A DNA stretch of 64,000 bases from Brienomyrus brachyistius (taxonomy: Eukaryota > Chordata > Actinopteri > Osteoglossiformes > Mormyridae). The stretch spans positions 22,988,461 through 23,052,460 of the forward strand of contig NC_064548.1 in the NCBI RefSeq assembly GCF_023856365.1. Direction: 5' to 3'. This document shows, in pieces, positions 12,525-41,386 of this stretch (its first letter is position 1; each line of letters opens with the position of its first letter). The position numbers and the translations under genes are program-made. The notes below the pieces were generated by a model, which did not search any database, had not been told where the DNA came from, and saw nothing but the letters and a program-made list of their open reading frames with translations.

Positions 12525-13574
12525 TTTATAAAAAAAATTGAGTGTTTCAAACTTTGCAGTGTTTGCAGACCCAGTGACCATCATCCCTGCATTTGGCGCA
12601 AGTGAATTTGTAACACTTTGCACTGGTAAACCTGCTGCGGTTTCTGTTGCAGTTCTCCTGTACCTGACACTGAGTTGTCCATACAAGTCCTGGCACAGCA
12701 GCAGCCTTCCTCTGTCCCCATAGCCTTTTGTGGCATAAATTGGCAATGGAGTTCCTTGGCTAGATGACTCAAAAATAATCTTCTTTTGCCTTCCCACCCT
12801 GTACATGCCTTGTACAGAACGTAGGAATTTGCCACCACCAGGTCCAGCATGTTGTAAAATACAGCTACTGGCCACCTGCATGTTGCTGCTCTTACGGAAT
12901 ACATGCGCGCCATTTGGTCCAACACATTTACACCACACTATAACAGCAGAGAGAGAGAGAGTCATGAGTGTATTTGCTTTTTTTCTACCTTCTTTCTATA
13001 TAGGCCTGTATAGTACATATCAGAAAACATTGTAGCACTGATGTAAAATTATACACACATTCACATACCTTCATGTGGTTATAGTCTGTTATCGTGTTGG
13101 GTTTCCTCTTTCTGCCTTCACAGATCGCCACATCTTGGTCCAAGGAACTCAGAACACACACAATCTTGTTTTTTTAGGTGCATAAATTGTCAAGGAGACA
13201 CTGCCACTTCTAAGCACTGACGCGGAGAATTCCTCTTGCTGTGCAGTGTCCTTTGAAATTGGAGGAAGTTCATACCAAACTTTATTCCCTGTGCTCAGTA
13301 GTGTTGTTTTGCGCTGAAGCAGTCTGTGTGACAGTGCCAGTGAGGTGAAGAAATTGTCCGTTGTGACATTTCTCCCGTCATCCAGAAATGGCTCCATCAG
13401 ACTCATGACCATGTTCTCTGCCAGCCTCTCCCTTTTCTGGTGACTGGGGTCCTTTCCCAAGTTAGGGGACACGTTGCAGACGTATTTGGTCTCCAAATCC
13501 GTGGCCATCCAGAACTTGATCCCAAATTTGTCCGGCTTGGATGCGATATACCAAGTGACATGGAATGGATCCAC
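12525..13574 (-). pseudogene. piggyBac transposase fragment, left arm (PGBD-like)
   Basis: Minus-strand pieces include [18 protein letters not shown], then VTTDNFFTSLALSHRLL (holding the second catalytic Asp of the DDD triad in piggyBac transposases), then LDQMARMYSVRAATCRW (the third Asp region) and a Cys-rich C-terminal end. The pieces lie in more than one frame, and the 5' part including the first catalytic Asp is absent. This is a decayed copy interrupted by the L2 insertion. Confidence 0.85.
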
Positions 13575-14759
13575 ATCTACTCCACGTTGTCTTTCCACCG
13601 GTGTCCCTCAGGGCTCGGTTCTTGGCCCTCTCCTATTCTCCCTCTACACTAAATCTCTTGGCGAAGTTATATCCTCACATGGCTTCTCCTACCACTGCTA
13701 TGCCGATGACACTCAACTCATCCTCTCCTTCCCTCCCTCAGACACTCATGTCTCCACTAAGATCTCTACATGCTTGGCAGACATCTCATCTTGGATTACC
13801 ACTCACCAGCTAAAACTCAAAACTAGTAAAACTGAGTTGCTTTACATCCCGGCTGACTCATCCCCCCTCCAGGACCTTGCGATCTCCTTTGACAACTCCC
13901 TGATCCGTCCTTCGGTTTCTGCTAGAAACCTTGGAGTTACCATAGATGATCGGTTGTCATTTTCCTCACATATCACCAGTCTTTCTCGCTCTTGTCGGTT
14001 TCTCCTCTTTAACATCAGGAGGATACGTCCATTTCTTTCCACCCAGGCTACCCAGATACTCGTCCAGTCCCTCGTCATCTCACGCCTTGACTACTGCAAC
14101 TCGCTTCTAGCGGGTTTACCACTGAGCGCCATCCGTCCCCTCCAACTGATTCAGAATGCAGCTGCTCGTCTTGTTTTCATCCTTCCCAAGTTCTCCCACA
14201 CCACTCCTTTGCTGCGCTCCCTCCACTGGCTTCCTGTAGCTGCACGCATCAGATTCAAAACACTGATGCTCGCATACAAAGCCAAAAATTCTCTGGCACC
14301 ATCCTACCTAAAGGACCTCATCACACCCCGCTCTGCACCACGATCTCTCCGATCCTCCAGCACTGCTCGACTGGTCCCACCTCCCCTCAAGGCACAAGGA
14401 AGACACGCATCTCGGCTCTTCTCTGTCCTGGCACCTAATTGATGGAATGAACTCCCCCTAGATGTCCGAACAGCTGAATCCTTGAATGTCTTCAAGCGAC
14501 GACTCAAAACTTTTCTTTTTCAGAAATACCTGACGTAGAACTTCTATATTCTTACTCGACTCTTTTTCTGGTGTGTGTTTTAAAAAAAATAAAATAAAAT
14601 AAAAATTCTGCACTACTCAATGGCGTTCTCAGATATAGTATTCGTAGCTGGGGTCCTTATTGAGCTAGCATCGGAAATTCATTGCAGAGTCTCAAAGCAC
14701 TTATGTAAGTCGCTCTGGCTAAGGGCGTCTGCCAAATCCTGTAAATGTAAATGTAAATA
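13575..14759 (+). mobile_element. 5'-truncated L2-clade LINE inserted in the piggyBac element
   Basis: The reverse transcriptase C-terminal half is visible: [18 protein letters not shown], then [14 protein letters not shown] with the YADD catalytic box, [28 protein letters not shown] and [13 protein letters not shown]. The main ORF meets a TGA at 14440-14442 just before WNELPLDVR. The 3' end has A-rich tracts and the L2/SINE tail (GTAAGTCGCTCTGGCTAAGG, then GTAAATG repeats ending near 14759). It is truncated at the RT domain, as is common for LINE insertions. Confidence 0.9.
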
Positions 14760-18041: not shown

Positions 18042-18146
18042 CAACGGGTTCCCGGCAAGGTTCTCTTTGACTTGGTCTGCGCCCACTTGAACTTGATCGA
18101 GGGGGACTACTTTGGCCTGGAGTTCCAAAACCAGCGCAAGATGACT
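18042..18146 (+). CDS. farp1: farp1 exon: FERM F1 lobe, first exon found in the window
   Basis: The acceptor is TGTTGCAG before CAA CGG and the donor is ACT|GTGAGT, phase 0 to phase 0. It encodes the ubiquitin-like F1 lobe, including [20 protein letters not shown] and GLEF, diagnostic of the FARP/FRMD7 group. The preceding exon should end near a DDTQEAFEVP-type sequence, and nothing of that kind was seen between 1 and 18041. Confidence 0.95.
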
Positions 18147-21100
18147 GTGAGTCTTTCTTCATCTGGATTCCATCCCTCTGTTGTGAGCGGTGCTGATAAG
18201 TAGCTTGGGCTACAGATGGTCTGTAGTGCTGAGCAGATCATCTCAGGGGCCATCAAAGATCTGTAAGAAACAACATCTGTAACCTCAAGCAAGAAACATC
18301 CACACAGAGCCTAGACAGCAAGTTAAATTTGCCTGGTGTTGAATTTAACGGAGGGGAGGGTTACACTTTGGAGCCAGATGTTATACCCCCCTGATACACC
18401 CCCCCCCCCCCCATCCCACCCAGCAGGCTCTGACCCCATGTTTGTTTCCACAGGTTTGGCTGGACCTGTTAAAACCCATCGGCAAGCAGATCACGCGTGA
18501 GTGTCTCCCCAGGGGAGCCCCTATCAGGTTTAAGGAGTATGCGTGAATGATAATGATTAAAATATGTCATTGTAAAACTGTAACAAGGCGTGACCTTCCA
18601 GGGCCCAAGAACACGATCCTGCGGTTCGTGGTGAAATTCTTCCCTCCAGACCAGGCCCAGTTGGTGGAAGAACTGACCAGGTGAGCTGAGCGTCCCCGTG
18701 TCCCCTGCCTCCCACCGCATTCCTCTACCTCGTATTCTGCCTCCATTGTTCTTTATCGGCAGCTGTCTGCACGCTGCCTATCTTCGCCAGCCCCCCCCGC
18801 CTGTCCACAGCCTGGCTCGAGCCGGAACCCGTGTAGTTTTATTCTGTGTTTTTCCCCCAGAGCTGGAAGATTAGTGGACCAGAGCTGCCCTCAGCTGTTC
18901 TTGAGAATGGGGGCCTTGTTTGGGTTATGGCAGGCTTCATGAAAGCCACTGGCTGCTCGTCATGAGCTGATTGGTCCATCTGCTGCCGGTGGCCAGAAGC
19001 GAGGCTCTCTATCCCCAAGAGCAAGCTTATGAATCAAAGCTGGCCCAGGGGCTGGCGTTTTCTGCACTATTCAGCAAAACGGGGGGAGGACAAAGAAATA
19101 TCAGCTGCCAAAATCAAGGAACACCTACCAACCCCCCCCCCCAAATGTTTCCGATAATTTCTTTTGAAGTTTTAAAAAAAATCTGTAAAACTATATTTCC
19201 GTTGTTTTAGATGTTTATCTACAAATTTCCAAAAAATAAAAAATACGGAAGCCCAGATTGAGGCTAACATGTCCTGGGCAGCCATCCCCATCCCTTTTGG
19301 GCCGCTGGATGCTCAGTGAGCTGTGTAAACACTGCGCTGGCCGTCGCTCAATGCTGGATGCCTTTTCCACAGAACGCCAAGACCCGCGGCTCCGGAATGC
19401 CGATTTATATTTGTTTAGCGTGAAGCTGTCTGTCTTGTCGAAGCGTTTCCCGCTGTCCATTGATTAGCTCTTTGTTATTGTCCTCGCTGACACATTAATC
19501 CCGAAGGAGACGCGGCCCAGTTTCTCCCATCTCTGTCATGTCTGTGTGGCCGGTGCCACTTATTTCCGTCTGACGTGTTTGACCAATTTCCCAAAGCAAA
19601 GCATATCTCACACCTGGATGTTTCTTAGGGGCGGTGATTCTCTACCCGGTCCTTGGAGGCGTCTAGATTGTCCATCTGGGAGCTGGGAAGGATGCAAACA
19701 AATGGCCTCTCTGAGAGCTCCTGGGGACTATGTTGAAAAGCACTGTTCTAGAACAAGTGTGGTTAACACCTTTCCTAGGGTTAGGGTGACTGCATAGCTC
19801 CACGATAACTAGATTGGCTGTAGTCTGTTAGCACACTGGTCACCTTCGCCCTCTCCTCTGCCCTCCCAGGTACCTCTTTGCCTTGCAGATCAAGTACGAT
19901 CTGGCTTGTGGACGGCTGACCTGCAATGAAAGCAGCGCCGCCCTGCTGGTCTCCCACATTGTTCAGTGTGAGTCTATAGCTGCACTTGGTCATTAGAATT
20001 GTCTGATTTTCTGTGGTCCGTCTTGTTCTTTATACTCTTCATCGTTGAAAAAAGTCCTTCACCGAAGGTGCAAACACGTGCCACTTTCGGTCCCTCCTGT
20101 TGCTCGTCACACTGTGGATGGTCGATTTTTTTTTTGGCCATTCTGCATGCAGAGCACGTGAAACCACATGCATAGCTCCCGGTTGTACCTGGAGGGGCCC
20201 CACAGTGAAGGTTTTTCTCCTCCCCCCCAGCTGAAATCGGGGACTTTGACGAGACGCAGAGCAGGCAGCACCTTCTCTACAACAAATACATTCCTGACCA
20301 GGAGGCCCTGATGGACAGGATCCTGGATTTCCATCGCAAGCATGTGTGAGTCCGGCGGGCTGGCGAGTGCGAGTGAGCGAGCGTGTGTGGGTGCCACCTT
20401 TTTAAATACGATACTTTTGTTATGCTTCAGTTTTGTTGAAATGGCTTAATTGAATTTAATGCAGTTAGGAGGACATCCATTAAAGTAGAAATGTTGCCCT
20501 TCTCTGTGTGTGTGTGTCTGTGTCTGTGTGTGAGAGAGGGGTGCGTACATACATGTGCGTGCATGCATGCTATGTCACCATTATAACCCTTTATGCAATT
20601 CAATTAAGTGGAAAAGATGGTGTTCATGTCTCATTAAGAATTAATCCCTTTAGAAAATGCCACTTGAAAGGTCAGTCACATTCCACCAACCTCATTCCGG
20701 ACAGAGTGATTCCAGCAGAACCATTCGCCGATTATTACCCTAATCTGTGCCATCTACTGCACGTCTCTGCAGTGCAATACGGTCGCACTTCGTTCTTAAA
20801 TGTGTTTTAGCGTGGGTTTCGATTTTCAGAGTCGCATGGTCAAAGCAGCAGTGTCAACATGAAACCACGAATGACTTCCTATAGGAACGATTACAGTCCC
20901 TGTCGAGTGTGTGAGTGGCGACTGATGGAGGGTGGGAGTGGGAAAGCCCCCATTTCCTTTTCCTGTCTCCCCCTCGTATGGGGGAATCGACACTGACGTT
21001 AGCTGTTGCTTGTAATGGATGCCGTCTTGCTATCTGTACAGCTGGAAAGAGAGGGCGAGCCGCCGACAAGCCGGCAGTAGATATCGCTGCGCTGCGTCCT

Positions 21101-24100
21101 GCCCCCCCACCCCTCACCACTCCCTTCCCATTTGGTGATAACACCAAGACACCGTTCCGGGTGAAACCTCACTGAGAATTCAGTCACTAATTAAGCACCA
21201 CACACAGGAAACAGGAAGTCATTTTCAGAAATTACAGAGGCAGGGAAGCATCCTGTTGGAGAACACCCGGTCGAGCTAGCTGAGGTTTGGTAGTTTGAAA
21301 ATGCTGATTTATGCTGGCTTTCACCATGAAGTACCGTTAATTATGATAGTTCATTAAAGTAGGGATCAGGAACTCTGAAGCAAATGCTGCATTGACTGTT
21401 ATGGAGCTTGGAGGGATGGCGAGGGATTTTTCTGAGATACACGAATGACGTGACATGCAACTTAGGACAATGCTGGTGGATGTGTTTCCATTACAGTGCA
21501 GGCATGTCCCTACATAACAGTTTACTGTTTCTCAGAATTAATGTCACATGACGTCAGTGTCTGAGGTCCAATCGGGTGTTTAATTATGCAAGTCTCAGAG
21601 TGTGCAATTAGTTTGACAGTCACGGCTAATAGTTTGCCACATTTCAAAGAAGTGTTTTATGACTGTTCTTGCATGTTAATCTAATGCACAGTTTAAGACA
21701 TTTTATGGGGTAAAATGAATTACAACTGATGTGGAAAGTATGCTGGGAACCATGTGCAAGCTGATGGAATAGGACAATAACACAATTCAGTAGAAGCTGT
21801 AAATACTGACGATTTAGCTAGCTTGCCATTCCTGAATTGATGGACGTCCTTCTGGTTACTTCACAGGACATTATAGGAAGTGTTGAACACGTGTCAGTAA
21901 TTAAAATACAGTTTTATATGTGAGCATTAAGGCTCTGTGCTCGCATTGGTCCTTGTATGCGGTGGCACGATGCGAGTCACCAGATTCGTTTCTCTTCTCC
22001 AGAGGCCAGACCCCGGCTGAGTCCGACTACCAGCTCTTGGAAATCACACGACGGCTAGAGATGTACGGCGTGCGTCTCCATCCAGCCAAAGACCGGGAGG
22101 GCTGCAGGCTGAGCCTGGCTGTTGCCCACACAGGAATCCTAGTCTTTCAGGTGACTGGTGGACTCTTCCGGTTTGACCCGTGGGCTAGTGTTTCTTAGTT
22201 GGCCAGTTGGATACTCAACCCCGTACCCTGCTTTTCTTATGGGAAATCCGTGCTTGTTCCCAGTTAAAATGGTAATTTTGATGTAGCCCAGTAACAGTGC
22301 CGTTGTTCTATGATGGATAATTTGTCTGTTTTGTTTCGAAGAAGCTTTCCCTTGTATATCCCTGGCTGAACTTTGAGAGTTATGCCCAACATAAACATAT
22401 GTTCAGTTTTGAACTTACAGTAACGTATTACCCAGAATATACAGTAATGTCCTTTTGCCCAATAGCAGGGGAGGCTTCATTTCTGGTAGAAACTCCTCAT
22501 TAAAAACACCACAAGCAGACAGCGAAAGCTATTTTTTCTTGTTTATAGATTTTCCGATGTAGGATTGGCTTTTTTTCCTTTTTATGTGCTGCTGAAATTG
22601 AGGGAACGTTTATCATTGTGCTGAAAGGGTCGTCGCACTGAGAGTTTTTTTTTTCCCCCCGTGTGTTTTCTGAAGGGGCACACGAAGATAAACGCCTTCA
22701 ACTGGTCAAAGGTCCGAAAACTGAGCTTCAAAAGGAAGCGGTTTCTCATCAAACTCAGACCAGACCCAAATGTGAGTGCCTCTCTTATACAAGCCCTGTC
22801 TCAGACAAAAGGGCTGCGTTGTGTGACAGTGATAATGAATGATGTTGATGATGAAGACACAGAACATCTTAGGTTCAGTTGTTACAGTTCTAGGAATTGA
22901 TGTCAGGTGTTTTACTGGTAGGACGACTCTCAGAATAATCCAGCTATAAATTGTATAAAAATCATTATGTCTATATAGCCGATTTTGACTGAATATAAGA
23001 TGACTGCGTAAATAACGTTCTTTTATTTGTGGAAGGAGCTTAAACTGAGATTAGAACATTGAGATACCATAAAATAATCTTGTAGCAGATTGTCAATCTG
23101 GGGTCATACGTTATAGTAATAAAATGATAATATTTAATCCCCTTCTCATTGTTGTCTACATTAGCTACATTCTCCCATTTTATCTTCATTCAGCAAGATG
23201 TTCAAACCTGATAGTGCGGTCGGTAGCAGTCTGTACGGCTGACCTGCCACTGTGTGACTGTCCCCTACTGCAGAGCGCGTGTCAGGACACCCTGGAGTTC
23301 CTCATGGTCAGCCGGGACCACTGTAAGGTCTTCTGGAAGATATGTGTGGAGTACCATGCCTTCTTCAGGCTCTTTGAGGAGCCCAAGCCCAAACCCAAAC
23401 CTGTGCTCTTCACCAGGGGGTCCTCCTTCAGGTTCAGGTAGAGTCCGATGATGGTGCAAACTCTGGGACAGATTTTTTAATACCTAATGCAGTGTTTCCC
23501 AATCTGGAACTCGTGGACCCACAGTTACCCATGTTTTTGCTCCCTCCCAGCTCCCTGCCAGACAGTCCACATTTTTGCTCCCTCGTAGCTCCCTGCCAGA
23601 CAGTCCACATTTTTGCTCCCTGCCAGACAGTCCACATTTTTGCACCCTCCCAGCTCCCAGTAGGGAGTAGGGAGCTGGCAGGGAGCAAAAACATGGGCCG
23701 ACTGTGGGTCCATGAGGACCAGATTGGGAAGCACTGCTTGATGGTTACGGAGATAATGATTTACTACATGGGTATTGCTGAAATAACTATGAGGTAGGAT
23801 TTAAAGTAACGTTCCTCAACATGTCTTACACATTTCTTTTCTCATGTTCTGTCACCTCCTCCTCCCCATCACCGTCTTGTCCTCTCCATGTCTTCCACCT
23901 GTACTTCCATTCAGTGGCCGGACACAGAAACAGGTGATTGATTACGTCAAGGATTCGGAATTCAAAAAGATCCCTTTTGAAAGGTAGGACTTTGGGTATT
24001 TTGGGATTGTGTTTCTTTTAGGACGGTGCAGGTCGTCTTTGGTCCACCTTTAACCTGCTGGATCTGGACATCGTCACAGAATGCTCTGGAAAAGTAGCTG

Positions 24101-26142
24101 AGGAGGCTGTGTGATGAAGCGTGTGTGTTCTGGGCTGACTTGGGATGGTGAACCATTACCGGCCTCCCATGCCTCTTCTGTCTTCCAGGAAGCACAGTAA
24201 GATCCAGTCCAGCAGCAGCCCATCCCTTCTGCCTTCCCTGCGGCGCTCGGACGTCCCCACAGAGGTCAGTCGTGCTTCCCGCTCTGCTGCCACCCCTCAT
24301 TTTAGCTGAGGGAGCCTTGCTGCTGAGTGACTCATTGTGGTCTACAAGCTTATGTTTAATTCAGTTGCTGAAAGCAGGCCAGTAAATTTAGACAGACCAA
24401 AAAAACACCTTCCATAGTGTTTATATATATTGGCATACGTAATGGTCAGTCCTCAATTAACGATCAGTAAGCACAAGTCTGATTAGTCCTCTTTTTTATT
24501 TAATGTTATTGAGTTTATTGACATATTTTATGCAGTGCACTGTCAGAAAAAAGAGTACCCTTTTGTACCTTTGTCACTGGGGCTATACCCTCAAGGGTCT
24601 GCCAGCTGTACCCTAGCTGCAGGTAAATGTACATTTTAAGATACAGAAATGGACCATGGGGAACATTTTTGTACCATTGATGGTACGCTAATGCTGTTTG
24701 TACTTTGGGTATGTTCATAATCTATTTCTGTACCTTAAGTTAGACTAAAAGGTACATTTACCTACCGTTAGCATACAATTGGCAGACACTTGAGGGTATA
24801 TCCCCAGTAACGAGCAAAGGTACAAAATTATACTCTTTTTTTTTCTGATAGTGTAGGAGAAGGTGACTCTTGCTTCTTTTGGGAGCCTGTTGAAGTGGCC
24901 GCCGTCCTCGTTGATCATTGGTAGCCTGAACTTCTGACTTTGCTCCCCAGAGCACCAGCAGCACCTCCGGGATCAAGACCGAATCCTCGAGCCAGCACAA
25001 CTGGAGCTTGGCGGAACAGCAGGGGAGCAGCCCCTCTGCCCAACACAATGGGGGAGGATGCGAGGCTCGGGTCGGCCCCGGGGCGGAGGAGGGGCGGGGC
25101 CAGGGGACCCCCGCTAGGCAGACGGCGGAGCAGCTGAGCACAGGTCCAGCATCCCGAGCCGCCAAGGGCAGCAGCTCCTCTATCCCGTACATCGACTGCA
25201 GTGACATAGATAGCGAGTATGACCTGGCCAAGTGCCACGTCACACGCTCCCGTTCCCGCAGTAACGACACTCACGAGGATGAACCGGCGTTCTGGGGAGG
25301 CGGGGTTAATGGCGCGTACCACCATGAGCGCGAGCTGCGCCTGGCCAAAATCCGGTACCCGGGCCAGCCCGTGCCGCGACTCTGACGACGAGTCGTTGGA
25401 CGCTTCCCGCTCGGGCAGCGTCCCCCTCCGCGCGCCGCTCCACAGCACCCTGCTGGATGATGTTTTTCGCACCTCGGAGCAGCGAAGCCCCCTCTTGCCT
25501 CGCCGAGTCCTGGCGGGCAGCAAGAGTGCCACCTCCAGCCCGCTGGTGAGCGCTTTTCACCGGACCGGGTCGCTCGGTCACGAGCCCAATGGGCACGTGG
25601 GGCGCTGGGGTGACACCAACCGGGTCTTCGGCACACGTCCAGGGCAGCGCAACAGAGGGGCCCTTTACGGCAGCCACTCTCCCCTCGCCATGCGCCCGCC
25701 AGCCCCACATAAGCTGCGAAACGGGCATAACCGCTCAGAGACCGACCCCTCGGTCCTCAGCCGCGGTGGCGAAACACCGGGCCGCCAGGCACGCTCCGCC
25801 ATCGCCGAGCGCCGCGTGGTGGCCAATGGCCTGTGTCCCCCCAGCCAGCCCAAACAGAGCCCCGCGCGTCGACTGTACGGCCGAACAGGCGCTGATCACG
25901 TGGGAGCCGTCCAGATGACGGACGGCTCCACAAGCAGCGGCACCGAGTCCAGTGACTCTGAGTCGGAGGCAGGCATCTCCGTGGGCCACCCGCTCATGTA
26001 CGGCAACCCCATTGCCGTGGGCAACGCCTCGCCCATGCCGGGGAGTAAATTCTCCTTCGGCAGCCTGTTGGACGAGGAGCTGGAGGACGACGCCTGCTTT
26101 AACTTTAGCGACGAGGACGGCTCGCGGGTCCTGAGCTGTTAG
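18042..26142 (+). CDS. farp1: farp1, predicted short isoform: FERM-FA plus FRMD7-like tail (apparent +1 frameshift)
   Basis: This model uses the first ten FERM-FA exons (331 codons here), then the exon at 24951 read past its internal donor. Zero frame continues 144 codons to TGA 25383-25385. The +1 frame then runs 252 codons, 25384-26139, to TAG 26140-26142. The tail is Ser-rich and ends acidic. Two stretches recall FRMD7: [12 protein letters not shown] (zero frame, about 25171-25206) against FRMD7 SSSSFPFIYMDP, and ESSDSESE...YG...SPM...[15 protein letters not shown] (+1 frame, about 25945-26103) against ESSDSESE...YG...SPM...GSLQLDEEDEDAYFN. FRMD7 is a FERM-FA paralogue without DH or PH that affects actin and neurite growth. 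The total of about 780 residues, with the missing N-terminus, is near FRMD7's 714. Both the isoform and the frameshift are inference. A one-base assembly error or a real frameshift mutation would look identical. Confidence 0.6.
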
Positions 26143-27169: not shown

Positions 27170-30100
27170 CCGCGTGTCTGCATCGTGTGCAGCTGTGCTT
27201 GTGCTCAGAAGGCTGATCTACCTGTAGCAGAATAAACCCCCCTGCCCGCCCCCCCCCCACTAACCCATGTAGTTCTCCAGCTCACCTGTTGGTCGGACGC
27301 CCTTATGGGACTCTGTAGTGGCAGGCTGTGAGAGGCTCCGCTGTAGGTGGGTCTTATTTTGGTTCAGATGAGCATGTGACCCAACCACGAATGGCCGTGA
27401 ACCAGTTCACAGACTGTAATGCATATGGGGTTAGGGCCAGTGACTGTCGTTACCGCTGGGAACAGTGGTGTACCTTTAAGGCTGTAATCCCCTGTCTTCT
27501 CTGGACCGTGGCTTGGAAGAAACGTCCCTCGGCTGACTGTGACGGCTGTGTCCATGTCGCCTCGCTGCTCACCCTCCCCGGGCATGTTCCCCATGCCCTT
27601 CCGCTTGGTCAGCTGAGGTGCCGACCTCCACAAGCACCTGCCCAGCCTTGTGACACTCTCACTATCCAGCATGCACTGCTGCCCAGCCTCTCCCAGAACC
27701 GTTTACTTCCTTCTCTTTTTACAAATTCAAGACCTATGGAGCTTCATGCCCATTATTGTCATCTGTTTGTGATGTATGACCTGACTATCCTATCTGACTC
27801 TGTTTGTAACACAATGCTTGTTTTCTTTTAAAAATCAAAAGAAAGCTCTTTGTCAAATGTAAACACTCTCCTGTCAGCATGTCCTTGTTGGAAAGAGATC
27901 GTACACCACTTCTGCTTCTCTTCTTTCGCTGATCTGCAGTGGCCAGCCTACCTTTCCGTGGGGGTGGGGGGGGGGGGGCGGTGGCGGTGCCGGCCAGGGT
28001 TCCCTTTGAACGCAGTGATCCCATTAACTTCAGAGTTAGCTTCAGGAAGCCGCAGCGTGGAATAATCTAGCAGGGGCTGCATGTTTGTGTAAGAAACGTC
28101 CATATTTATTCAACCGTTATGCATATCTCACTCACTTTGCTGTGATTTTTTAAAATATTATTTATACAGTTCCCAAATTTTGTACTGCACTAATTACAAA
28201 TGTTAAATGACCCACAAATGTAAAGATGCACATAAATTTTTGGTTCGCTCTTCTGATGATTATTTCAACTGTATTGGGATTCAAGACGTCTGTGAAAGGT
28301 CTGCAGTGAATTTTACTTTCTATGTTTTATTTCTGCAAAATGAAGAATTTCCTGTAGGTGGATCTCTTGTACTCTGCTAAGAAGGTTGGGTCAGTGTTCC
28401 TCAGGCTACGCTGTTGAGATTTAGGCAGCGGGAGAACGAGGGTCACCTTGGTTACTGGATCACTGCGGTTTTAAAGAGACACTGAGCGCTGACTGTTGGC
28501 TTTTCATGGGCTGATATGCTGCACGCAGCTAACGCACTGCTTATGGGACCACCGGTTATTGATCTGGGGGGGGGGGGGTCTGAACCAGATCGACGCAGTA
28601 CGGCATTGCTGTGCCAGTTCCACCCGTGTTCAGCCAGCCAGACAGTCTATGTATATTGAACCCCCCACCCATTAAGGGTAGAATGCATGGGCACTTCTGC
28701 ACAGGGGGCTACCACCACCCCAACACTCTGGCATGTCCCTGGAGAGTGAACCCCCGCCCTCCCCCCCCCACCCTACCACCACCCTTGCTCTCTGGCATGG
28801 CGTGTGTCCCGCAGTGTCCCCCACTGCGTGCCCACTGGCACACTTTACGTTTCCGCCCCATTCAGTCCTCCCACAAGCAGCACTTTCAGTAAGTCTCACT
28901 GCAAGACTCGTAGCCTTTTTTGTAAAACTAAACAGTTTTCTAAAGCATGTTTCATATTAGCATTAACGTTTGTAAGCTTATTTCGTACTGAGCTTCTTTT
29001 CTTGAGGTTGGCTCTTTAGTCCTTTTTGTACTATGCTATTAGTGCGTATTAATCGCAGTCTTGCGTTTTGCTGAATGCTCCGTCACGGCCGCGGTTGGCA
29101 GAGATACCTGCTGAAAGTGCTGCTTCTCACTGTCCCAAAACCAGAACCCAGAACACGGGATGGACTGTGTGTACTGACGGCCCGGCTATACCCTGACCTG
29201 TTCTCTGTCCTCGATCAGCCCGGCCTCCTCTCCCCATAAAAAGCTGTTGAGTTGGTATAAGCCAAGGCAGTTCTCATGACTGTCAGTTGGGCTTTGTTAA
29301 GTCTTGGCGAGGGGTGGGCTAAGTCTACACTCACTGTAACACCCCCCATGCATTTCCTAACTGCTGGAAGACTTCTGTTGAAAACTAGGCCCCGCTATGT
29401 ACTTGCGACTGTAATACTTTTGTATATTCTAGCTTTGTATTGGTGTTCCTCTTGGCACGTGCTGCATTCTGTTACTGTCTGATTTTCTATACTTTAACAT
29501 TGTATAGGGTTGTGCACTAGTGTCAATAAAGTTGACCTTTGTGAAGTGGGAGTCCAGAATCTTCTTTAAAGACCCCCAACGATGTCTTGTGATCGTCCTA
29601 GATGCTAGAGTATCCCTGCCCTCCCGTCTGTGGTGGTGTTAGTAGAACATTCTTAGTTGTTGTCGTGTGTTTGTCTCTCATTTATGCATTGGTTCTCGTG
29701 GGGGTGTGTCTGTGTAGCATGTGTGCTGGCCGTTTTGCACCATCCCATCGTCACTCCTCTTCTTCCATCACGTAGCCAGTTTCCCACTCCGTGTCGTAGA
29801 TGGCTAGAGGTTGCAGGTTAATCGCTGTCTTTTTGAAGCCAGCCTAGCGCGCTCAGTGGACAGAGAATCCGTGTCGGGCAAGTATGCCGTCCAGAACCGT
29901 AGCAAATGTAGTCATGATGTAGTTGAATTAGGTAAGTCATTCTGTCTGCCGATTTTTTTTTTTTGTTTGTTTTCATGACCGAAAGGGGCTGAAATATGTT
30001 GACCCATCAGACCCTTGAAGCCACATTCATACAATTGGAGATCTTGAGGTCTTCACATGCCTCCAGCAAATTATTGCAGTTAGCTGTAGCCATAGACCAT

Positions 30101-33100
30101 TTGATGCCCTGTTTGATGTCCCTTCTACCTATTTGCATACACCCTAGCCTTAGACATAAGAAGTTCTCTGAATGCAAAAAGCATTTCCCACTTACTGTCT
30201 TTTTACACTCTCTTTCAGGAAGAGCATCCAACAGCCCGCGCCTGTCGGATTCCTCAGGGGCATCCCAGGGTCTGCTCAATGGGCAGAAGCAGGCACTGAC
30301 CCCAGGCCAGAGCCCCGATGGCCGGCAGCCTTCCCCACTCACCAGCCCACTGCTCAATGATGCCGGCTGCCTCCGGACTGACGACGAGGACGAGGTTCGG
30401 AGGAAGGTTTGTGGCCCAAATGGCCGTGGCATGTAAAAAAGTTGGAGTGGGATCGATTGGGTGTTGGCAGCTGCTTTGGTGGTCAGCCAGAGATCATCTG
30501 TGTGCACTGAACTTGACATGTCTCTTAGTTTCCTCTATTACATCTTTGAATTCATTCAGTGCTCTCTGTTGCAGAGGTTCCCCACCGACAAGGCCTACTT
30601 CATTGCCAAGGAGTTGTTGACAACAGAGAGGACGTATCTCAAGGACCTGGAGGTTATTACTGTGGTAAGTCTGTAGTGATCCAGTTCTGCTTGCAGTTTG
30701 GTGGAGATGCCTTTGCCTCAGGCCATATTGAATGTCACGGATCTCTTGAGGGCTGGCACCGAGTCAGATTTAGGTGAGACAAAACATTGGTAAAACTTTG
30801 GTTAGCTTCCACCATGATCTCTCCTCTTAACAATTACTGTTGGAAGAAACCACATTTTGCTATTAACTGTCAATCAGCAGCTGTTAGCACAGCTAGCTCC
30901 TCTATGGTTTCCAAGGCTATACGCAAGGGAGAGCATGGCGCCTCGACTCTCCATGTTAGTGGGTATGAGTCAAAACCCTTCTAATAATAATAATAACTCG
31001 GTTATTGGCCATTTGCACAAATACGGGTGCATCAAAATTTGTATATTTGTCCTCATTTGGCTCTCCATAGCTTGGGGGTCACAGCGCAGGGTCAGCCATT
31101 GTGCGGCGTTGCTGGAGTTGGGGAGTTTAGCGCCTTCAGACTTAACTGAGCCACTCACCACCTCCACTTGCCTATTCTGTCGACTTTGCATGACTTCCTC
31201 GTGCTTGCGTGCTGCCGCACTGGATTTATGGTCTGAATTTAAACATCCGTCTTGGCAGAGAGCGTCTTGCTTGGTATTTTGTTGTTTATGCACAGAAGTC
31301 CTTTCATTTTTTTCTTTGAAGAGTCATTGAAATCTACCTCCTGTCAGAGGTCTCCCCACTTTGTGGGAAGGGTAGCAAGGAGAACGGTGGTTAAGTAGGT
31401 CTACATGAACTGGTCCCTGGAGCAAGACCCCCAACCTAAATCACTAAAGTACCTAGCTATGTAAATGGGTATAATTGTAAGCAGCAGCAAATGTAAATTT
31501 GTGTCATTATTAACAAAGCCTGCTGGTCTTGTTCAGTGTACTGGGTACACTGCTGTGGTTCTCTGATGAACCGACACTGTTACCATGGTTCTAGGCTCTC
31601 TCTTGGACATCTTTTCTACATTTTTCCCACTTTGTGTCCCTTTTCCTTTCTCTTAGTCCTTCCAGAACTCTGTGGCAAATGACGAGGCCATGCCTGACTC
31701 TCTCAGGAATATGGTTGTCTCCAACTTCGACCCCCTCTACAAGTTCCACACGGGGTTTTTGAGGGAGGTAGAGCAGAGGCTGGCTCTCTGGTGAGTTGAT
31801 GAACTTTGCCATGTTTTCTTGCTGAGTGACTATTGGTGTGTTTTATCATCAAATTGTTACATTTGTCTGCTCAAATTATTTTTAGAAGGTGGTAACATTT
31901 TTCCGGCATACATGGATTAAAGCGATAATTTTGGTTTTATTACATTTTTTTTCCCAAAAAATGAGTTTGTGCCAAACATTGCGGAATAAGCTGGCAAGAT
32001 TTCTGTATATACCTTGTTCATCTGTGTTCATAAACCTCTTGACAGTGGGCCTATTATCTCACACTATCGATCTGTAAACCTGCCTCGCGGCGACTTCCGT
32101 GTGGAGCTAAGGCAGACAGTTGGAGAGGATCCAACAGGAAATTGCATGCCTTAACGTGGCTTCAAGAGCGATGGTTTCTATGGTAATGGATGAGCAGTGA
32201 CAATGGTTCACCCCTCCCTCCATCTGTAGGGACCATCACATGGGAATCTGCTTGCATCAACCGAGTGGTTGATAACGCCTAGCTCTGCTCAAAGAAACTG
32301 AACAGGGAGAGTAGGAGTTGTTAGAATCAATCTTGGGGAAAAATAAGCTGACAAAAGGAATATTATAATGTTGGAATGTCTAATAAAAGATTAAACAGGT
32401 TGTTACATTAAAAATTGAAATGCATCAGTGGTTTGAAGCGTGCTGGAGAAGCAGCCTTAAATTCCCCCCCAAAGGCACTACATTCTGCATGTCTCTTCAC
32501 TGCATTTGATCTACTTTTCAAGTTGGACAGCCTCATGCCGTGTGTGGTAATGAGTCTCGCCTCAGGAATTTGAGAAAGACCATGATAAGTGTGGATCATC
32601 TTCATTCACTTCCTTGTTAGGGCTTGCATGGATACTCCAGGCTTCCCTCTGCTGGTTGGTACATAAAATTGCAGAATATGTATATATATATATATATATA
32701 ATGTAAACCATAGACCTGAGGTGGGCAATATTATTCAGAGAGGACTGTTGAGTATGCAGGTTTTTGCTGCAACTAGATTACTAATTAGCGAACTGATTGG
32801 CTGAAGAGTTCTCACACCTGGGTTTGAACAGTGACTTAAAGGTTATCCTAAAAACCTGTATACCAGCTGACCCTTTGAGGGTCCGACTGCCCACCCCTGT
32901 TGTAGACTATACTGTATGCCCATATGTATGACCATGCTGAGGTTGATGTGATCTGCACAGGGAGGGCCGCTCCAACGCCCACATTAAAGGGGGCTACCAG
33001 CGGATTGGGGATGTCATGCTGAAGAACATCCAGGGCTTAAAGGTACGGACCCTTTGCCAAAATGCTGTTCACTGCCACCGCATTGTTGACACCCACAGCA

Positions 33101-36100
33101 TGAACCAGGGCTGAGCGCTGAAGCTGCATTGCTGGGTATTTGGTGGTGAATGATTCAGTGATTTGGTTCAGAATAAGTAGGATTTTCCAGGAAGTACAAT
33201 TCCCCGAAGCTTATTCATACGACAGGAGAGGTTCTCACAGTCTTAGCAGTCTTAGTATTTTCACCCAGCCAAAATGGCGGTTTTAAATGTCATAGTCACA
33301 GCATTTGTTAAAGATCGTATTCTTTGAGCTCCAACAAATCCTGAAACACAAGGCGTAGTGGGCAGTGTGCATCTCAGGGAGTTGGACACCTGTGTTCAGA
33401 AGGCCATTAGCTTGGTTTCTATAGCTGGCAGGCTAATAATATCACCATTGAACCCTTGAGAAAGTTCCTTTAGACCTTGTAGCACCGTTAATACTATGCT
33501 GGTGTCTCTTGCCGCCCTGTTAAAACTCTTCCCTGTTATTGAAGCCCTGTGTGTTTTACGGGGAGCAGAGGAGCATTAAAGAGTTTGTAGGAGGAAGGCG
33601 GAGCTATTTGGGATCATGGCTGTCTGATTGGTTCTTTGGTATTTAGACAGGCTGCACGCTGGGTCAGAAGTAACAGATGGAATGGGGTGGGGAGGGGGGG
33701 CATTATTTGGCTAATTAAGAGCGCCCTCCCTTCATACTTCCCCCTAAACCAGCGGTTCGCGTTTGAAGCCTTTTTAATCACTCTAATCGTTATGCTCATT
33801 AATGAACATGGTCCAACAAGAAATAGTCATATGGGCTCCACCCAGGGGGTCCACTGAACTCTGCCATGTGACCCAGGCAGGGGTCTGGCCAGCCGGTCAC
33901 CTATGTGTCTGGACTTTTTCATGTGTGGACCAACGGATCTCCTTTGGAGCACCACAGGTGCATTATGGGAATGGGCTTTAAACCATACCGTGATTTAAGT
34001 AGATGACCGTCCAACATAAGTGATGGATTATTATGCTCGAGCAGTAATTCCGACATGGCTGCCCACCTCCTGTAGACACACGCCTCTTCTTATCCGCCCC
34101 CAAATTGTCAAATCGGACCGATAAAGGGACCACCATCCCTTCAGGTGCGCTGAGCGTCTGCCGTTCGTGAAGGCGCCGCCCGTGGCCGCCGGTGTGTGAC
34201 GCGGCCTCCCCGTTTCCTGCAGCAGCTCTCGGCCCACTTGCAGAGGCACTCGGAGGTGCTGCTGGAGCTGGAGACGGCGTGCCGCGCCTCACGCCGCCTG
34301 GAGGCCCTGTGCCGGGACTTCGAGCTGCAGAAGGCGTGCTACCTGCCCCTCAACGTCTTCCTGATGCGGCCCCTGCACCGCCTCATGCACTACAAACAGA
34401 TCCTGGAGCGGCTCTGCAAGCACTACCCCCCCACGCACGAAGACTTCCGGGACTCCCGGGGTAGGCGCCCGCATGTGTCTTTTTCATATTGGCCAGTCTT
34501 GCACTTGCACCCCCCCTTCCCTACACTCCCTGGGACCAGCATCACAACCTTGAATTCAATGAACGGTTCTGTAAATTGCAGGACTGATATGTATGGTGGT
34601 GGGCGGCTCAGCAGGTTACGATGCTGGCTCTGGGATCAGAAGGTTGTCAGTTCAAATTCCATGGTCTGAGGGATGGTTTCACCATTCAGCCCTTGACCTT
34701 TAACCCCTCACTTTTAGAAAATATCAGTTTGTACTGATAATATAATTACTTGTTATCACTGGGGCTGGCTGTACCCTCAAGGGTCCGTCAGATGTATCCT
34801 AGCTGAAGTGTGCATGTACTTTTTAGTCTAATTTAAGGTACAGAAATGGACTCGGAGGAACCATTGTTGTACCATTGGGGGTACATTGTTGTTTGTACTT
34901 TGGGAGATGAAACTGTACCACGGCTGTACCAGTGTGATTTCACCAGGGTTTGACTGACCCCACTGCATCTGCCGAACATCCTAATGTATTTATGTAACAT
35001 TCTAGGTCCGTCCTGTTTTGTACAGGCTAGGAAATACAATTCAGATGTTAAAATTTTGTACGATTTCAGGCGTTTGAACATGCCAGTGACTGCAGTTTTT
35101 AGTGAATCCATGCAGATTTTCCAGTGTCTGTTAGAAGTGACCTGTCTGTCTGATTCATATTAGGGAAACCAATCATTGAACGGAATGGCTTTGATTTACT
35201 GTGGTGTAACAGTATCGTGGGAACGCTGAAACTCAGAGCAGAGAGATGGAACTGCAGCGACAGCCGTGGTTTTTTGGAAGGATGAAGTACAGAGTGTTTG
35301 GGTTGTGAAGCTGGTGTGAGCAGAGTGATTAGGGCTGATTCCTCCCGACGCACGTTCGCCCTCCAGCTGCGCTAGCGGACATATCGGAGATGGTGGCCCA
35401 GCTCCATGGTACCATGATCAAGATGGAGAACTTCCAGAAGCTGCTGGAACTCAGGAAGGACTTGGTGGGCATCGACAATCTGGCCGCTCCAGGACGGGTA
35501 AGCTTTGTCCTCGGATTTCCTCACCCCGGTGACCTCCAGGTCATATCCTAGTTGAAGCAGTAAAGGCTGTGGGTTTTTTCCCCATGAACAAACGGTGACT
35601 TTCCCCATTGTCTGTTGCAGGAGTTCATCAGGTTGGGCTGTTTGAGCAAGCTGTCTGGGAAAGGTCTGCAGCAGCGAATGTTTTTCCTGGTAATTCCCGT
35701 TTTCCTGGATTTAACTGTAACCATGGACGAATTGGGGGAGTGTGATTGGGGGGTGTCACGGCTCAGCGTCAGTCGCTTCCTGATTTGACTCAAATAAGAC
35801 CTGGGTTAATCCCAGAAGTTATTTACAGGATAAAATAATCCCAGCCATGGCTTTTGAAGCCTTGTCCCGCCCGTAGCTGGTCGAGACAAAGACCACTTCA
35901 TTTAGCATTAATGCTTTTATTTCACATCGTTACGCAACTTTTAACACGGCTAAAATTAAAGGGGCGAGAACCAGATTCCTGGACAGTCCTGGAAAATTCC
36001 GGGACAAGCCTCGCAAAGCGCCACTCCCCTGGGTATCGGTGCGTTTAACTCAGTTGGCACTGTGGCATTTGTTAAATGGGCTCTAATATTCAAATTAATA

Positions 36101-39100
36101 AGGTGCCTGTTGCTTAATATGGGCACTTAGTGGATGGCATGCTGACAGGTTAGGGTTGTTTACAGTGGTAACCGGTGAGCTTTTAGAGAGTTCACCCGGC
36201 ATTTGGTAGGTAGGGCAGGGTGGGAGTTAAGGTTGTCACAGTTAGCGTTAGCATTTTTCCCATAGAAGTGAATGAGCAGGCCCCATAAGGATAGGTATAC
36301 CCTACGTGTGTGTGTGTGTGTGTGTGAGTAAAAGGCGTCTTCCATTTTCTGCCTGACAACAGTTCAGTGACATCCTGCTGTACACCAGCCGAGGGACGAC
36401 CACCTCCAATCAGTTCAGGGTGAACGGTCAGCTGCCCCTTTACGGCATGACGGTGAGTCTGGGGCCGTGGGGGAGGGGCCACGGGTAAGTAAATCGCACC
36501 CGAGACCGAGGCTGCTGCTGTTATATCTTAATACGGCGTAAACTAGTAAACAGAGAAGCTGTAAAAGGGGTTAATAAGACTAAGCTGAATATTAGAGCAG
36601 CTGTTAAGTAACCTAACGGAATAATGAGAGTGTGGAGCTGCGCGTTTAAGTCTGTCTGCGCAGCTACTAATTAAAGCATTAGGAAAACAGAAGCTTTGTT
36701 TTCACAGCCCAGTTAGTGTGGGATCCTCTGCGGAGGGCCATGCGGTCGCAGGGAATGCGCACGGGATTACATTACAGCACTGTCGCTGACATCACCGTCG
36801 CCATCCAATCGGCAGCGTCGTCTTCCTCTGTCCCCCACAGATCACCGAGAGCGAGGACGAATGGGGCGTGCCTCACTCCTTCACATTGTTCGGACAGCGC
36901 CAGACGGTGGTGGTGGCCGCCAGGTAAGACCCCCCCCCCCCCCCCAGAGGCATCCGCAGCAGCAGGTTATACTGATGTGCCCCTAACAGAAGGGTTGCCA
37001 TAGCAGCCAGGGCTTTTATTGCCACAAAAATCCATCGGTTACCTGCGATGCTACATGAAACGTTTATCTGGCACGGCTGAGAACTCATGCGTGCCCTCTA
37101 GTGGCCATTTCCTGACATGCACCTCATTAAAGCATTCAAAGTTGAGTTCGGTTTCAGCGTTTGCTCCTTTTTTTGGGTCTGTTAATTACCGTTTTGGCCT
37201 GAACATAACGCTGTTTTTTCCCCCCAAGAAAAACTACATCTAAAAAACACATTCAAGTCTTGCATTCAAGAACTAGAATATAAATGTCATTATAAACATA
37301 CTACAGAAGAGAGCATAGATTATCTGCCTCCTGGCTGAACGTAATTCAGCGTCATTTTCGGAATTCAGCATCACACAAGCGGTGATCGGTGTTTCAGCGC
37401 CTCACCTGGGCAGGATCCCCGAGGCAAACGTTTTCATTTGTTTTGATCCCGCCCACTGTTCCCGATTCGCTGACACATCTGTCATCTCCTTTAATAAAGT
37501 CGAATTATTTTACAGTGACTCAACCACTCGCCACAATACGTTTTGTGCTCTTTATTTGGACCTGCTTCGTGGAAAACATCCTGCATCCTGGGATTTGAAG
37601 CCTTGCCCCACCCATAGATACTTAATAGTCTAATAGCATTGTCACCCAGTCATGTTAGGGTTGCACCTGATTGATGGCCAGTGAGAGATGCAGCTTTTCC
37701 CCGGGCTACGATGGGGTTACATTCTGATTAAGGTGAAAATGCATTTTAATACAGTTCACCTAACCTAACGAACATCATAGCCTAGCCTAGCCTACCTTAA
37801 ACATGCTTAGAACACTTACATTAGCCTACAGCTGGGCAAAATCATTAACACTAACCCTATTTTATAATAAAATGTTGACTATCTCATTTAATTTATTGAA
37901 TAATGTACTGAAAGTGATAAACATTTACCCATCGTAACATGGACCATCTGAACCCGGGGAGCGTCTGTATGTGCCCAAGTCTAAGCTACCCCATGAATGC
38001 ACGCAATCAAACCTTCAGATTTTCTATCACACAATCCTCTTCCAGCTCCGCGTCAGAGATGGAGAAGTGGATGGAGGACATCAAGATGGCCGTTGACCTC
38101 GCCGAGAAGAGCAGTGGCCTTTCCTCTGACCTGTTGGCCAGCAGCCTCGGCAACAAGAGTAAGTTGTCCCGGTTTGCTGCGGGTCGCGGTGCTGCGTGTG
38201 ATGGCAAGACCTTCCTTTCCACCTCCCTCCCTGTTCCACAACTTAACTGCTTCTGTACCATATGATCGCATCTCAGTCGTAATTTAAATTTTAACAAGTT
38301 TTGTAAACTCCATCAGAGTGGCAGGAAATATACAAACAATTCCATTCCCACCTCATCTCCACACTTCCTGTGTCACGGTTAGCAAACTGTTTGAAGGGGA
38401 TGGAGATTGGGGACCTGCTTGAATTTCAGGACAGCGGCCGTCCGGTTTGACAGTCCACGCTTCCAAGTGCTGTGCGGGAAAAACCCGTGTCACGGCAAAG
38501 GTCGGCTGCCTTCGTGCCAAACCCGGCACCGCCACGAGGCCTGAAGTTCACCTGAGCTTCTTGGGCCTGCTGTCATCCTTGTGTTGCGGAGATGAGCTAG
38601 TGACCCGTTTCACTACATTTCCCAGAATCCCCTGAGGACTCAGCCCTGGAGCAGGAGTCTGAGGATGACCTGAGCGCCTCCCGTACCTCCCTGGAGAGAC
38701 AGGCGCCCAACCGCGGCAACACCACAGTGCACGTGTGCTGGCACCGCAACACCAGCGTGTCCATGGTGGACTTTAGTGTTGCCGTGGAGGTACCTGCCCC
38801 GGCACAACACTCCCGCTTCGTCCGCGTGTCCATGTCCGTGTCCGTGTCTGTGTCTTTGTGACTCTCAAACCGGAGTCTCTGTCAAGCTCACTAGTGCTGT
38901 GTCTTCTTCTTTCTTGCTACACGTTCCTGCTCACGGGGCGTGAATCCCAGTGAATCCCCGGAAGTCCTTGCCATCATACTGCACTGTTTCTCCTCAGGCC
39001 TTCTGATGACTCGCTTTCCCATTTCTGTGTCGGACGCTGCTTCCAGTCTTTCACACTAGTGAATTTTAACATCTTAGACCCGTGTTTCCCAATCCGGTCG

Positions 39101-41345
39101 TCGGGAACCTGCAGTTGGTCTAAATTTTCGCTCCCTCCCAGCTCCCGGTAGTAAAAACCTGGACTGTCTGTGGGTCACCAAGCACTGAATTGGGAAACAC
39201 TGCCTTAGTCTTGCACTATGGCTGTGCCTTAGCATTGGAATTCACGGTTGTGCCACGTGGAATGATTTTGTTGCTTGGGATTACGCCCCCATTCTTGTGG
39301 GCATCTCCACTGACCAGCCATCCTGGATGATGCCCCCCTCACCCCTCACATATAATCTATCCTTTAAAATCAAATTACTCTTCTGTTCAGAAGCAGAATG
39401 TTGTAAGTTGTTGGGAGAAAACATGGGCATCGTTAGGTCTGATCACTCAGGGCTATAGCTCCAAGAATTTTAACCCTATAGCCCCGAGTATTTTACCCAC
39501 GATGCGTCTTCCTTCAAAGAAAAAAACGAGCCCCAGGTGAACTTGACTTAGCTCCTGATTTTTTTTTCCAATGGCTATAAACACCCCTGAGAGAAAATAA
39601 AGCTTTAATGTTGCGGTGGCTCAGAAGGTGGCGCTCTAGGAGGCCACCTTTGTTGCCTGAGGTGCTGACCGGCGCTGACCTCACCCACATTATTGACATT
39701 GTTAAAGGTTGAGTTAATGCAGCCATTGATTGACTGCACGCAGTAATCCCCAGCTGTGGGTTTAAAAAGGTCATTTTTTCCATCTGTAACACTGTGTTTT
39801 AAGTGCAAAGGGAATAATTGTTTACAGGGTAACTAAAGCTGGTGCTAACGGGGGTGGTGGGGGGGGGGGTACTGAGGTGTAAAATGAGCATCACTCCTAA
39901 CATGTCCTGTTAATTATTCTTAAAAGCACCAGTCTTGCTGGGTGGCACAGGAAGCCCTTTCAGCTGTTTTTAATGGCCCTTCAGCCCTCCCACCCCCCAC
40001 CAGGCCCCCCCCCCCCCCCCCACCAGGCCCCCCCCAAACAGCTCATCTGTTCGAGTCTGTCTGTTTAACCTGCTTATTACATGTTCAAACTATTCAGCCT
40101 CTGTCTTTGTCCTCCCTTTCCGTCTGTCTCTGTCCGTCCATCGTTCTAACCCCCTCCCCTGTCCCTTGCCTTGTCACGATAGAGGAGCCTAGGCCAGTCA
40201 CTCCCTCACTGGCGCCCCCTTGTGGGGGAGCTGTGCCTTTCTCTCTTGTCTGCTGGCACCGAGTTTACAGCATCTCCTTTAATGATACCTGCAGGAGTAC
40301 AGAGGTAAAATTGCCAGGCAGATGCCCCCCAGCGTTGAGCACCAGCACCTCGCATGAACTATCTATTTCATCTCCGATTCAACCCCCCCCCCCCCAAACC
40401 CGCGATGCGACATTCGCGCATGCAGATTTCCTGCATGACTGTGAGTTTGGCTGATTGTGATAATAGCTGTTTATCATGTGAGTATTACTTGCCTGAGCTG
40501 TGACCCCTGGGAGTGAATCTGCGTCAGCCAAACCTCAGATGATAAGAATCCCCATCCTGGCATGCAGCCTCTTCACCAATCTGCATATTTTACACCTTAA
40601 ATCTAAAAGCACAGGCATCTCAGAGCAGCTATTTATCCGTGTTCCTGGGTCCCCAACTGAATCTGCAAGGTCACTCACTCAGTCTTAACATCCCGAAATT
40701 AAATCCCAGGTCGATGCTTGGCCGCATCATGCAGATCGACACAATACTGTCAGGGTACATGAATTTAGGAGGAAGAAGAGGCTGGATGGAAACTGTGTTT
40801 CTGGAATTCACTTCCGATTTATAACGGGGGCTGTCTATAGCAGTGTCTGCCAACTCGTTGGCCGTGAGCTAGCAGTTACTCACAGAGAGCCAATGACTAG
40901 CCAGCATGACATTTATTAGAAATCAGGCTTCTTTTTTCGTACGTCATGTATAATTCCAGAGCTCCCAGCTGTTACTCTCGCCACCCCACCCACCCAGATT
41001 CCGTTCTGTGTAAAAGTAGATTGGAGACCCCTGGTCTATATTATACCTACAAGGCAGTAAAGGCCAATATATATACACACACATACACACGGTTTGTAAT
41101 TATATCTTTGTGGGGACTCTCCATTCATCTCTATTGGGAAAACTCTAATCCCAACATAACTACCTTAACCCCGACCCAGCCCTAACCTTAACCATAGGTA
41201 ACCAAACAAAATACGAGACATTTTTAGTTTTTTGATTGTATTCGCCGATCTTTGTGAGGACCTGAAAAATGGTCTTCACATTCTCAAAATAACAGCTTAT
41301 CACATTGTGGGAAACGATTGGTCCCCACAATGTAATATAAACATA

Positions 41346-41386
<41 letters not shown>

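Follow-up and report, generated by a model that had tools for sequence, protein, structure and literature searches.

The farp1 gene of the fish Brienomyrus brachyistius raises the question of why an exon that links the FERM-FA half of the protein to its GEF half continues to look like coding sequence far past its own splice donor. A preliminary description of the window, the 64,000-nucleotide stretch of DNA analyzed here, had proposed that the exon also serves as an alternative terminal exon with an FRMD7-like tail. In composite terminal exons, the C-terminus of the protein depends on whether a splice donor or an intronic poly(A) site is used. Our sequence comparisons favor the reading that 24951-26142 is such a composite exon, part of an ancient splice or poly(A) switch that yields either a Rho GEF or a GEF-less protein resembling FRMD7, and that the paralogue FRMD7, whose gene underlies an inherited disorder of eye movement (nystagmus), is fixed in the short state. 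We assign this reading a probability of about 0.82.

The gene lies on contig C16 of a 985-Mb assembly and runs from left to right in the window. Its exons were located by tblastn with a human FARP1 sequence, the splice signals were read and the exons joined; the first coding exon or exons, upstream of 18042, were not located by this search. The features are as follows (a slash marks a splice boundary).

18042..24264, plus strand: ten FERM-FA and following coding exons, common to both forms, one open frame when joined
24189-24264, plus strand: last exon before the linker, ending DVPTE/ in phase 0
24951..25143, plus strand: linker part of the composite exon, used by the long and short forms, acceptor ..ccccag/AGCACC
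25144..25149, plus strand: internal splice donor CAG/GTCCAG, phase 1, within a glycine codon; skipping it would give the short form
25144..26142, plus strand: predicted coding sequence of the short-form (FARP1-S) tail, zero frame to ~25355-25382, then +1 frame to the stop at 26140-26142
25355..25384, plus strand: frame break, seen as a frame change in tblastn, probably a single-base-type assembly indel
25926..26139, plus strand: C-terminal box (YGNP...SPM...FSFGSL.DEE...FNFSDEDG), related to the FRMD7 C-terminus
27231..27236, plus strand: candidate short-form poly(A) signal AATAAA, motif only
29525..29530, plus strand: candidate short-form poly(A) signal AATAAA, motif only
30219..43275 (about), plus strand: GEF-side exons of the long form, linker exon 30219-30406, then DH-PH-PH exons

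The linker at 24951-25143 is in frame with both the upstream exon and the GEF-side exon at 30219. FERM-FA exons are followed by DH-PH-PH exons in one gene, as expected of FARP1 or FARP2, and the same order is found in a second farp1 copy (ohnologue) on C1 and in farp2 on C21. The window gene is not FRMD7 itself, since it has GEF exons and a separate frmd7 lies on C10; nine of 23 weaker matches in this own-genome FERM search were left aside. Between 26143 and 30160 there are two AATAAA motifs, those listed, and a transcript end near 29550, as proposed earlier, is therefore reasonable. Two further observations were made by eye. A piggyBac-like transposase fragment (13149-13607, minus strand) lies beside a reverse-transcriptase-like fragment (13444-14442, plus strand) at 13149-14442, and an imperfect inverted repeat (..gtaccattgatggtac..) at 24540-24860, perhaps a small mobile element, occupies the intron directly before the composite exon.

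Past the donor, two overlapping frames carry the coding signal. In the zero frame no stop codon interrupts the sequence from 24930 until one that ends at 25385; in the +1 frame the open stretch begins at 25210 and its stop ends at 26142. GC3 in the zero frame is 0.84 in 24951-25143 and 0.71 in 25144-25352, and in the +1 frame it is 0.80 in 25378-26139; past the stop at 26142 the three third-position classes have GC fractions of 0.46, 0.53 and 0.50. When the tails of seven chosen relatives are compared with the window by tblastn, the zero frame is matched to 25277-25382 and the +1 frame from 25339-25411. The frame-specific GC3 and the matches of seven relatives in both frames bear out the claim that the exon is coding-like far past its donor.

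The change of frame itself requires an explanation. In the three closest fish (tarpon, salmon and sterlet) the gap between the matched frames is 4-13 bases, which leaves no room for an intron, and an intron across the break was ruled out on these grounds; for the other four relatives the tblastn matches stop earlier, begin later or overlap at the break. Programmed frameshifting was put aside, as the relatives read in one frame and the assembly has frame breaks elsewhere. These other breaks lie in the constitutive FERM exons of farp2 in the same assembly, two of them clear (after KFFP and after TKINLA) and a third probable (FHRRPL):

about 7322, 8000 and 9857 (c21 positions, contig C21): frame breaks in farp2, two clear, one probable

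The FARP2 protein of Paramormyrops is intact at these places. No similar break was seen by eye in the farp1 exons matched by tblastn with human FARP1. Because conserved farp2 exons of the same assembly have such breaks, the break near 25355-25384 is best explained as an assembly indel, and single-base indel errors of this kind mean that frame breaks elsewhere in the assembly also need care. An alternative, which we consider unlikely, is that the break is a real mutation, that in this species or this individual the short form of this farp1 copy ends early at 25385 and is decaying, and that its role is left to the ohnologue or to frmd7. The break is indeed present in the assembly, and a search of the fish's own genome with the last 70 residues returned the window itself only, with no second copy of this C-terminus at E up to 0.001. 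Against decay, 254 codons stay open past the break with a strong GC3 bias and 57% identity to tarpon, so that any break must be recent; the farp2 breaks are of the same single-base type; and of the two farp1 copies it is the ohnologue that has the more diverged tail.

Beyond this assembly, the predicted short form of FARP1 (FARP1-S) is widespread. A search with FERM-FA plus tail as query, scored on the tail only (8,000 candidates scored, E up to 10), gave 166 proteins that match the tail. The best 120 of these 166 were examined further and comprise unnamed open reading frames that cover the tail as well as full predicted proteins with FERM-FA plus tail. Such proteins are predicted in tarpon (55% identity), coho salmon, carp, sterlet, Callorhinchus, Xenopus, birds, a lizard, Tasmanian devil, pig and bat. 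An IPYID-type motif is present in 115 of the best 120, and three of the 120 matches listed also have a GEF-domain label (P0027, P0052, P0100). In an alignment of 15 proteins the conserved tail follows directly after FERM-FA and the linker, and a Pfam scan of tarpon, Callorhinchus and bat FARP1-S and of human FRMD7 finds FERM lobes and FA only in all four. A conserved open reading frame is thus predicted in the FARP1 genes of bony fish, chimaera, frog, birds, a marsupial, pig and bat, as the preliminary description had invited one to look for. Together, the open frames and the conserved predicted proteins uphold its proposal of an alternative terminal exon that replaces DH-PH after FERM-FA.

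The two farp1 copies of B. brachyistius have had an unequal fate. The copy on C1 (C1:43164037-43165260; L026-L027) keeps STGPASRA, the donor and an open frame of 407 codons; its tail is strongly diverged (33% identity to tarpon) and its C-terminal box hardly recognizable. The pig and bat proteins (P0101, P0119) end early, in ..EETEEDE and ..EEQEEEDE respectively, without the FSFGSLQLDEE..FSC box, and to judge from these predicted endings the FARP1 short form may therefore be fading in placentals.

FARP2 has the same kind of exon. In the fish's own farp2, a 342-codon open reading frame lies past the exon that ends DVPKQ/, and the farp2 tail shares 93% identity with its counterpart in Paramormyrops kingsleyae. 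Paramormyrops FARP2 has a 9-residue exon (SLSFNESLR) between the DVPKQ/ exon and the tail exon, which was not located in the own farp2. A search with the farp2 tail gave 95 proteins, made up of predicted FARP2 short forms (FARP2-S), unnamed open reading frames and long or fused forms, the last accounting for GEF labels on seven of the 95. An EE[FY]IDDDP-type block and a length below 950 residues are found in 89 of the 95; the other six, without the motif or with at least 950 residues, were dropped. FARP2-S is predicted in Paramormyrops, eels and their kin, cypriniform and other teleosts, bichir, stingray, frog, reptiles, birds, opossum, rodents including mouse (D3Z4C0), lemur and bat, and blocks such as EEFIDDDPAEISFFAGG are kept from stingray to mouse. 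The long and short forms of Paramormyrops FARP2 follow an identical path through AFPGA and then diverge. In the own farp2 the donor CCAG/GTGCCC fits this split and joins the exon starting at c21 17817; the long form would read E, not G, at the junction. Two tortoise isoforms, X7 and X6 (P0303, P0306), have most of the tail followed by the start of the GEF half, and these predictions suggest a third FARP2 form that would use a late donor within the tail exon.

The FARP1 and FARP2 tails are related to each other. For eight tails of each, picked as slowly evolving or well covered, hhalign gives E 9.1e-10 at a mid-tail block, TEEFIDDDPAEISFF, and a second, collinear C-terminal match with E 3.2e-3. 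Seven of the eight FARP2 tails score above all of their 2,000 shuffles each, and the frog tail does not. When the larger FARP1 model, in which teleosts predominate, is used, FARP2 of mouse and bichir scores above all 4,000 shuffles and that of stingray does not. The mid-tail block is eroded in most of the listed FARP1-S proteins, a loose pattern being present in 10 of 120 (best 120 of 166).

The relation to FRMD7 is restricted to the end of the tail. We compared profiles of 115 FARP1 tails and 107 FRMD7 tails, taken from the best 120 listed of each; five of the 120 FARP1 matches, without the IPYID-type motif, and 13 of the 120 FRMD7 matches, without the anchor, had been dropped. The FRMD7 comparison set consisted of mammalian FRMD7 and the own fish frmd7, and the human FRMD7 sequence used is 100% identical to entry P0121 over the scored residues. 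Local hhalign aligns the two sets at the C-terminus only, with E 1.1e-6 across 56 columns, improving to 1.9e-7 once the fish's own FRMD7 is included; global hhalign of the FARP1 and FRMD7 tails gives nothing. Against the FARP1 tail model, the tail of human FRMD7 reaches 22.6 bits, compared to 10.6 for the best of 10,000 shuffles, half of them within 12-residue blocks (scores were reported for 4,022 and 3,437 per 5,000, the rest being below reporting and taken as lower). Conversely, the window tail scores 12.2 bits against the FRMD7 model and the best of 10,000 shuffles 8.7 (scores reported for 2,728 and 2,573 per 5,000, the rest taken as lower). The terminal open reading frame of the own frmd7 ends SFSDSDSESVYPYYCSTLG...LSSGSLQLDEEDEGGDPFKLTDNDGAKA and scores 19.3 bits against the FARP1 model, the best of 4,000 shuffles reaching 6.9. 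The tarpon FARP1-S C-terminus also matches the own frmd7 directly (tblastn E 1.2e-4, 46% over 37 residues). The related region is the last ~55-80 residues, so that of the two anchors first put forward as FRMD7 homology the +1-frame, C-terminal one holds, on the evidence of hhalign, the shuffles and the own frmd7. The zero-frame, N-terminal one is not supported, as neither profile nor BLAST gives a match there.

Gene structure points the same way. The last intron of FRMD7 follows codon 350 (DVSKQ/) in phase 0, and a splice mutation, c.1050+1, is listed for intron 11. The own frmd7 reads DVSKQ/gt, and the preceding exons of farp1 (DVPTE/) and farp2 (DVPKQ/) end in the same phase, so the FRMD7 tail is entered after the corresponding phase-0 intron. 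FRMD7 is thus like FARP1-S in having FERM-FA and then a domain-free tail, a corresponding last intron in phase 0 and a related C-terminal box. It differs from farp1 in that it lacks GEF exons, none being matched in ~17 kb of sequence downstream of the stop of the own frmd7, and therefore has no switch; moreover, most of its tail cannot be aligned with FARP1-S. FARP2-S does not match FRMD7 directly at a significant level (E 0.17), which makes FARP1-S the bridge between the two.

This pattern could also arise if the tail is real in FARP1 and FARP2 and its likeness to FRMD7 is a convergence of acidic and serine-rich motifs in disordered tails. We judge this improbable. It would account for a match confined to residues rich in S, D and E while other parts of the tail stay unaligned, and for the missing direct match of FARP2-S. 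However, controls that keep composition, including those shuffled locally, fall far below the real score, the match is C-terminal in both proteins, and the FARP1 and FRMD7 genes are already paralogues over FERM-FA with a corresponding last intron. Somewhat less probable still is that the short forms are annotation artefacts, in which predictors have read past a real donor to the first stop and no protein is made: the matching proteins are database predictions and some are odd fusions of the tail with the GEF half (P0052, P0100), but the conservation at the protein level from chimaera to birds, the frame-specific GC3, the FARP2 blocks shared by stingray and mouse, and the relation to the FRMD7 terminal exon, the site of 25 of 140 reported nystagmus mutations (PMC10811807), all speak against it. 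According to the abstract of the same paper, 21 of these 25 C-terminal mutations are frameshifts (PMC10811807).

In the preferred reading of a composite exon with two outcomes, the internal donor would be the point of decision. The donors of farp1 (ACAG/GTCCAG), its ohnologue (ACAG/GTCCGG) and farp2 (CCAG/GTGCCC) share phase 1 and a glycine codon. The window donor, CAG/GTCCAG, fits five of nine consensus positions, the lowest of the 11 farp1 donors scored; the donors of the ohnologue and farp2 fit six of nine, as do two other farp1 donors. All 115 predicted short-form proteins, which read straight across the junction, have glycine there, followed by P in 90 of them, L in 21, Q in two and V in two. 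Since the residue after the glycine is mostly P, a C that departs from the consensus would be expected at +3 of the donor in most cases, if the same donor is used throughout. A donor kept weak by such double coding would suit regulated read-through.

Use of the donor at 25143 would carry the message on to the DH-PH-PH exons and give the Rho GEF, the long form. A message that instead reads through the donor and ends at a poly(A) site near 27.2 or 29.5 kb would encode FARP1-S, in which FERM-FA is followed by ~330 tail residues with no known domain. The ratio of long to short form would then be set by the strength of the donor and the choice of poly(A) site. FARP2 would follow the same scheme with a related tail and a corresponding donor, and FRMD7 would be the paralogue that has the short-type ending only; all three would descend from one gene with both endings. 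We infer that both transcripts are made in B. brachyistius and that the short protein would act as a scaffold.

A system with this anatomy is known from C. elegans. As reported there, the frm-3 products FRM-3A and FRM-3B share FERM-FA; FRM-3A ends without a recognizable domain, and FRM-3B, which has a GEF and two PH domains, arises by alternative splicing inside the last exon of the a form (PMC7260190). In the worm, FERM-FA is sufficient by itself to rescue the clustering of GABA-A receptors, and LIN-2/CASK is recruited by FRM-3 (PMC7260190). As in farp1 and farp2, the long form is spliced from within the last exon of the short form; the comparison is one of gene anatomy as described there. 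FRMD7 is not mentioned in that paper. The FARP2 exon, the position and phase of the FRMD7 intron and the worm gene strengthen the earlier idea of an ancestral gene with both endings. For the mouse protein, it is reported that full-length FRMD7 activates Rac1 and binds RhoGDI-alpha, and that neither the FERM half nor the C-terminal half alone does the latter (PMC3742540). Given this behavior of worm FRM-3 and mouse FRMD7, the GEF-less short form would be expected to have the same FERM partners as the long form and, in the manner of FRMD7, to act on Rac through FERM plus tail (e.g., via RhoGDI) or as a synaptic scaffold. We lean, with less assurance than for the exon itself, towards a wider account. 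An ancestral bilaterian FARP would have switched between a GEF and a GEF-less scaffold through a weak donor in a last exon coding for the scaffold; FARP1 and FARP2 would keep this switch, and FRMD7 would have lost the GEF half and fixed the scaffold. The short FARP proteins would then be related to FRMD7 in function, acting by way of FERM plus tail on Rac/RhoGDI and on synaptic scaffolds of the CASK type, and they may compete with the long FARP forms or back up FRMD7.

Alternative terminal exons are themselves common, and FARP short proteins are already in databases as unremarked predictions (mouse D3Z4C0, Seriola isoform X4, Ensembl-type entries) that are named simply FARP1 or FARP2. What sets the FARP case apart from composite terminal exons in general is that two paralogues conserve the alternative tail and a third has it as its fixed ending. 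Judged by title and start of abstract, none of the listed open-licence papers describes the FARP short form, its link to FRMD7 or the frm-3 parallel, and no paper among the open-licence literature searched treats FRMD7 together with frm-3. The words 'isoform' and 'splice' are absent from the consulted excerpts of the FARP1 structure paper, and the 'short isoform' of the ANKK1-FARP1 paper is that of ANKK1, not of FARP1. A switch between GEF and short form that is common to FARP1 and FARP2, with FRMD7 as the fixed short form, thus appears undescribed in the literature searched.

The C-terminal region of FRMD7 gains relatives, namely a hidden ending of FARP1 and, less directly, an ending of FARP2. 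Should the short forms be produced, GEF-less proteins would come from two Rho GEF genes as well, so that knock-outs of the FERM half, siRNAs and antibodies directed at it would hit two products. For the FRM-3A/FRM-3B pair of the worm there would be a candidate counterpart in vertebrates, and isoform-specific removal would offer a test of how FRMD7 arose and what it does.
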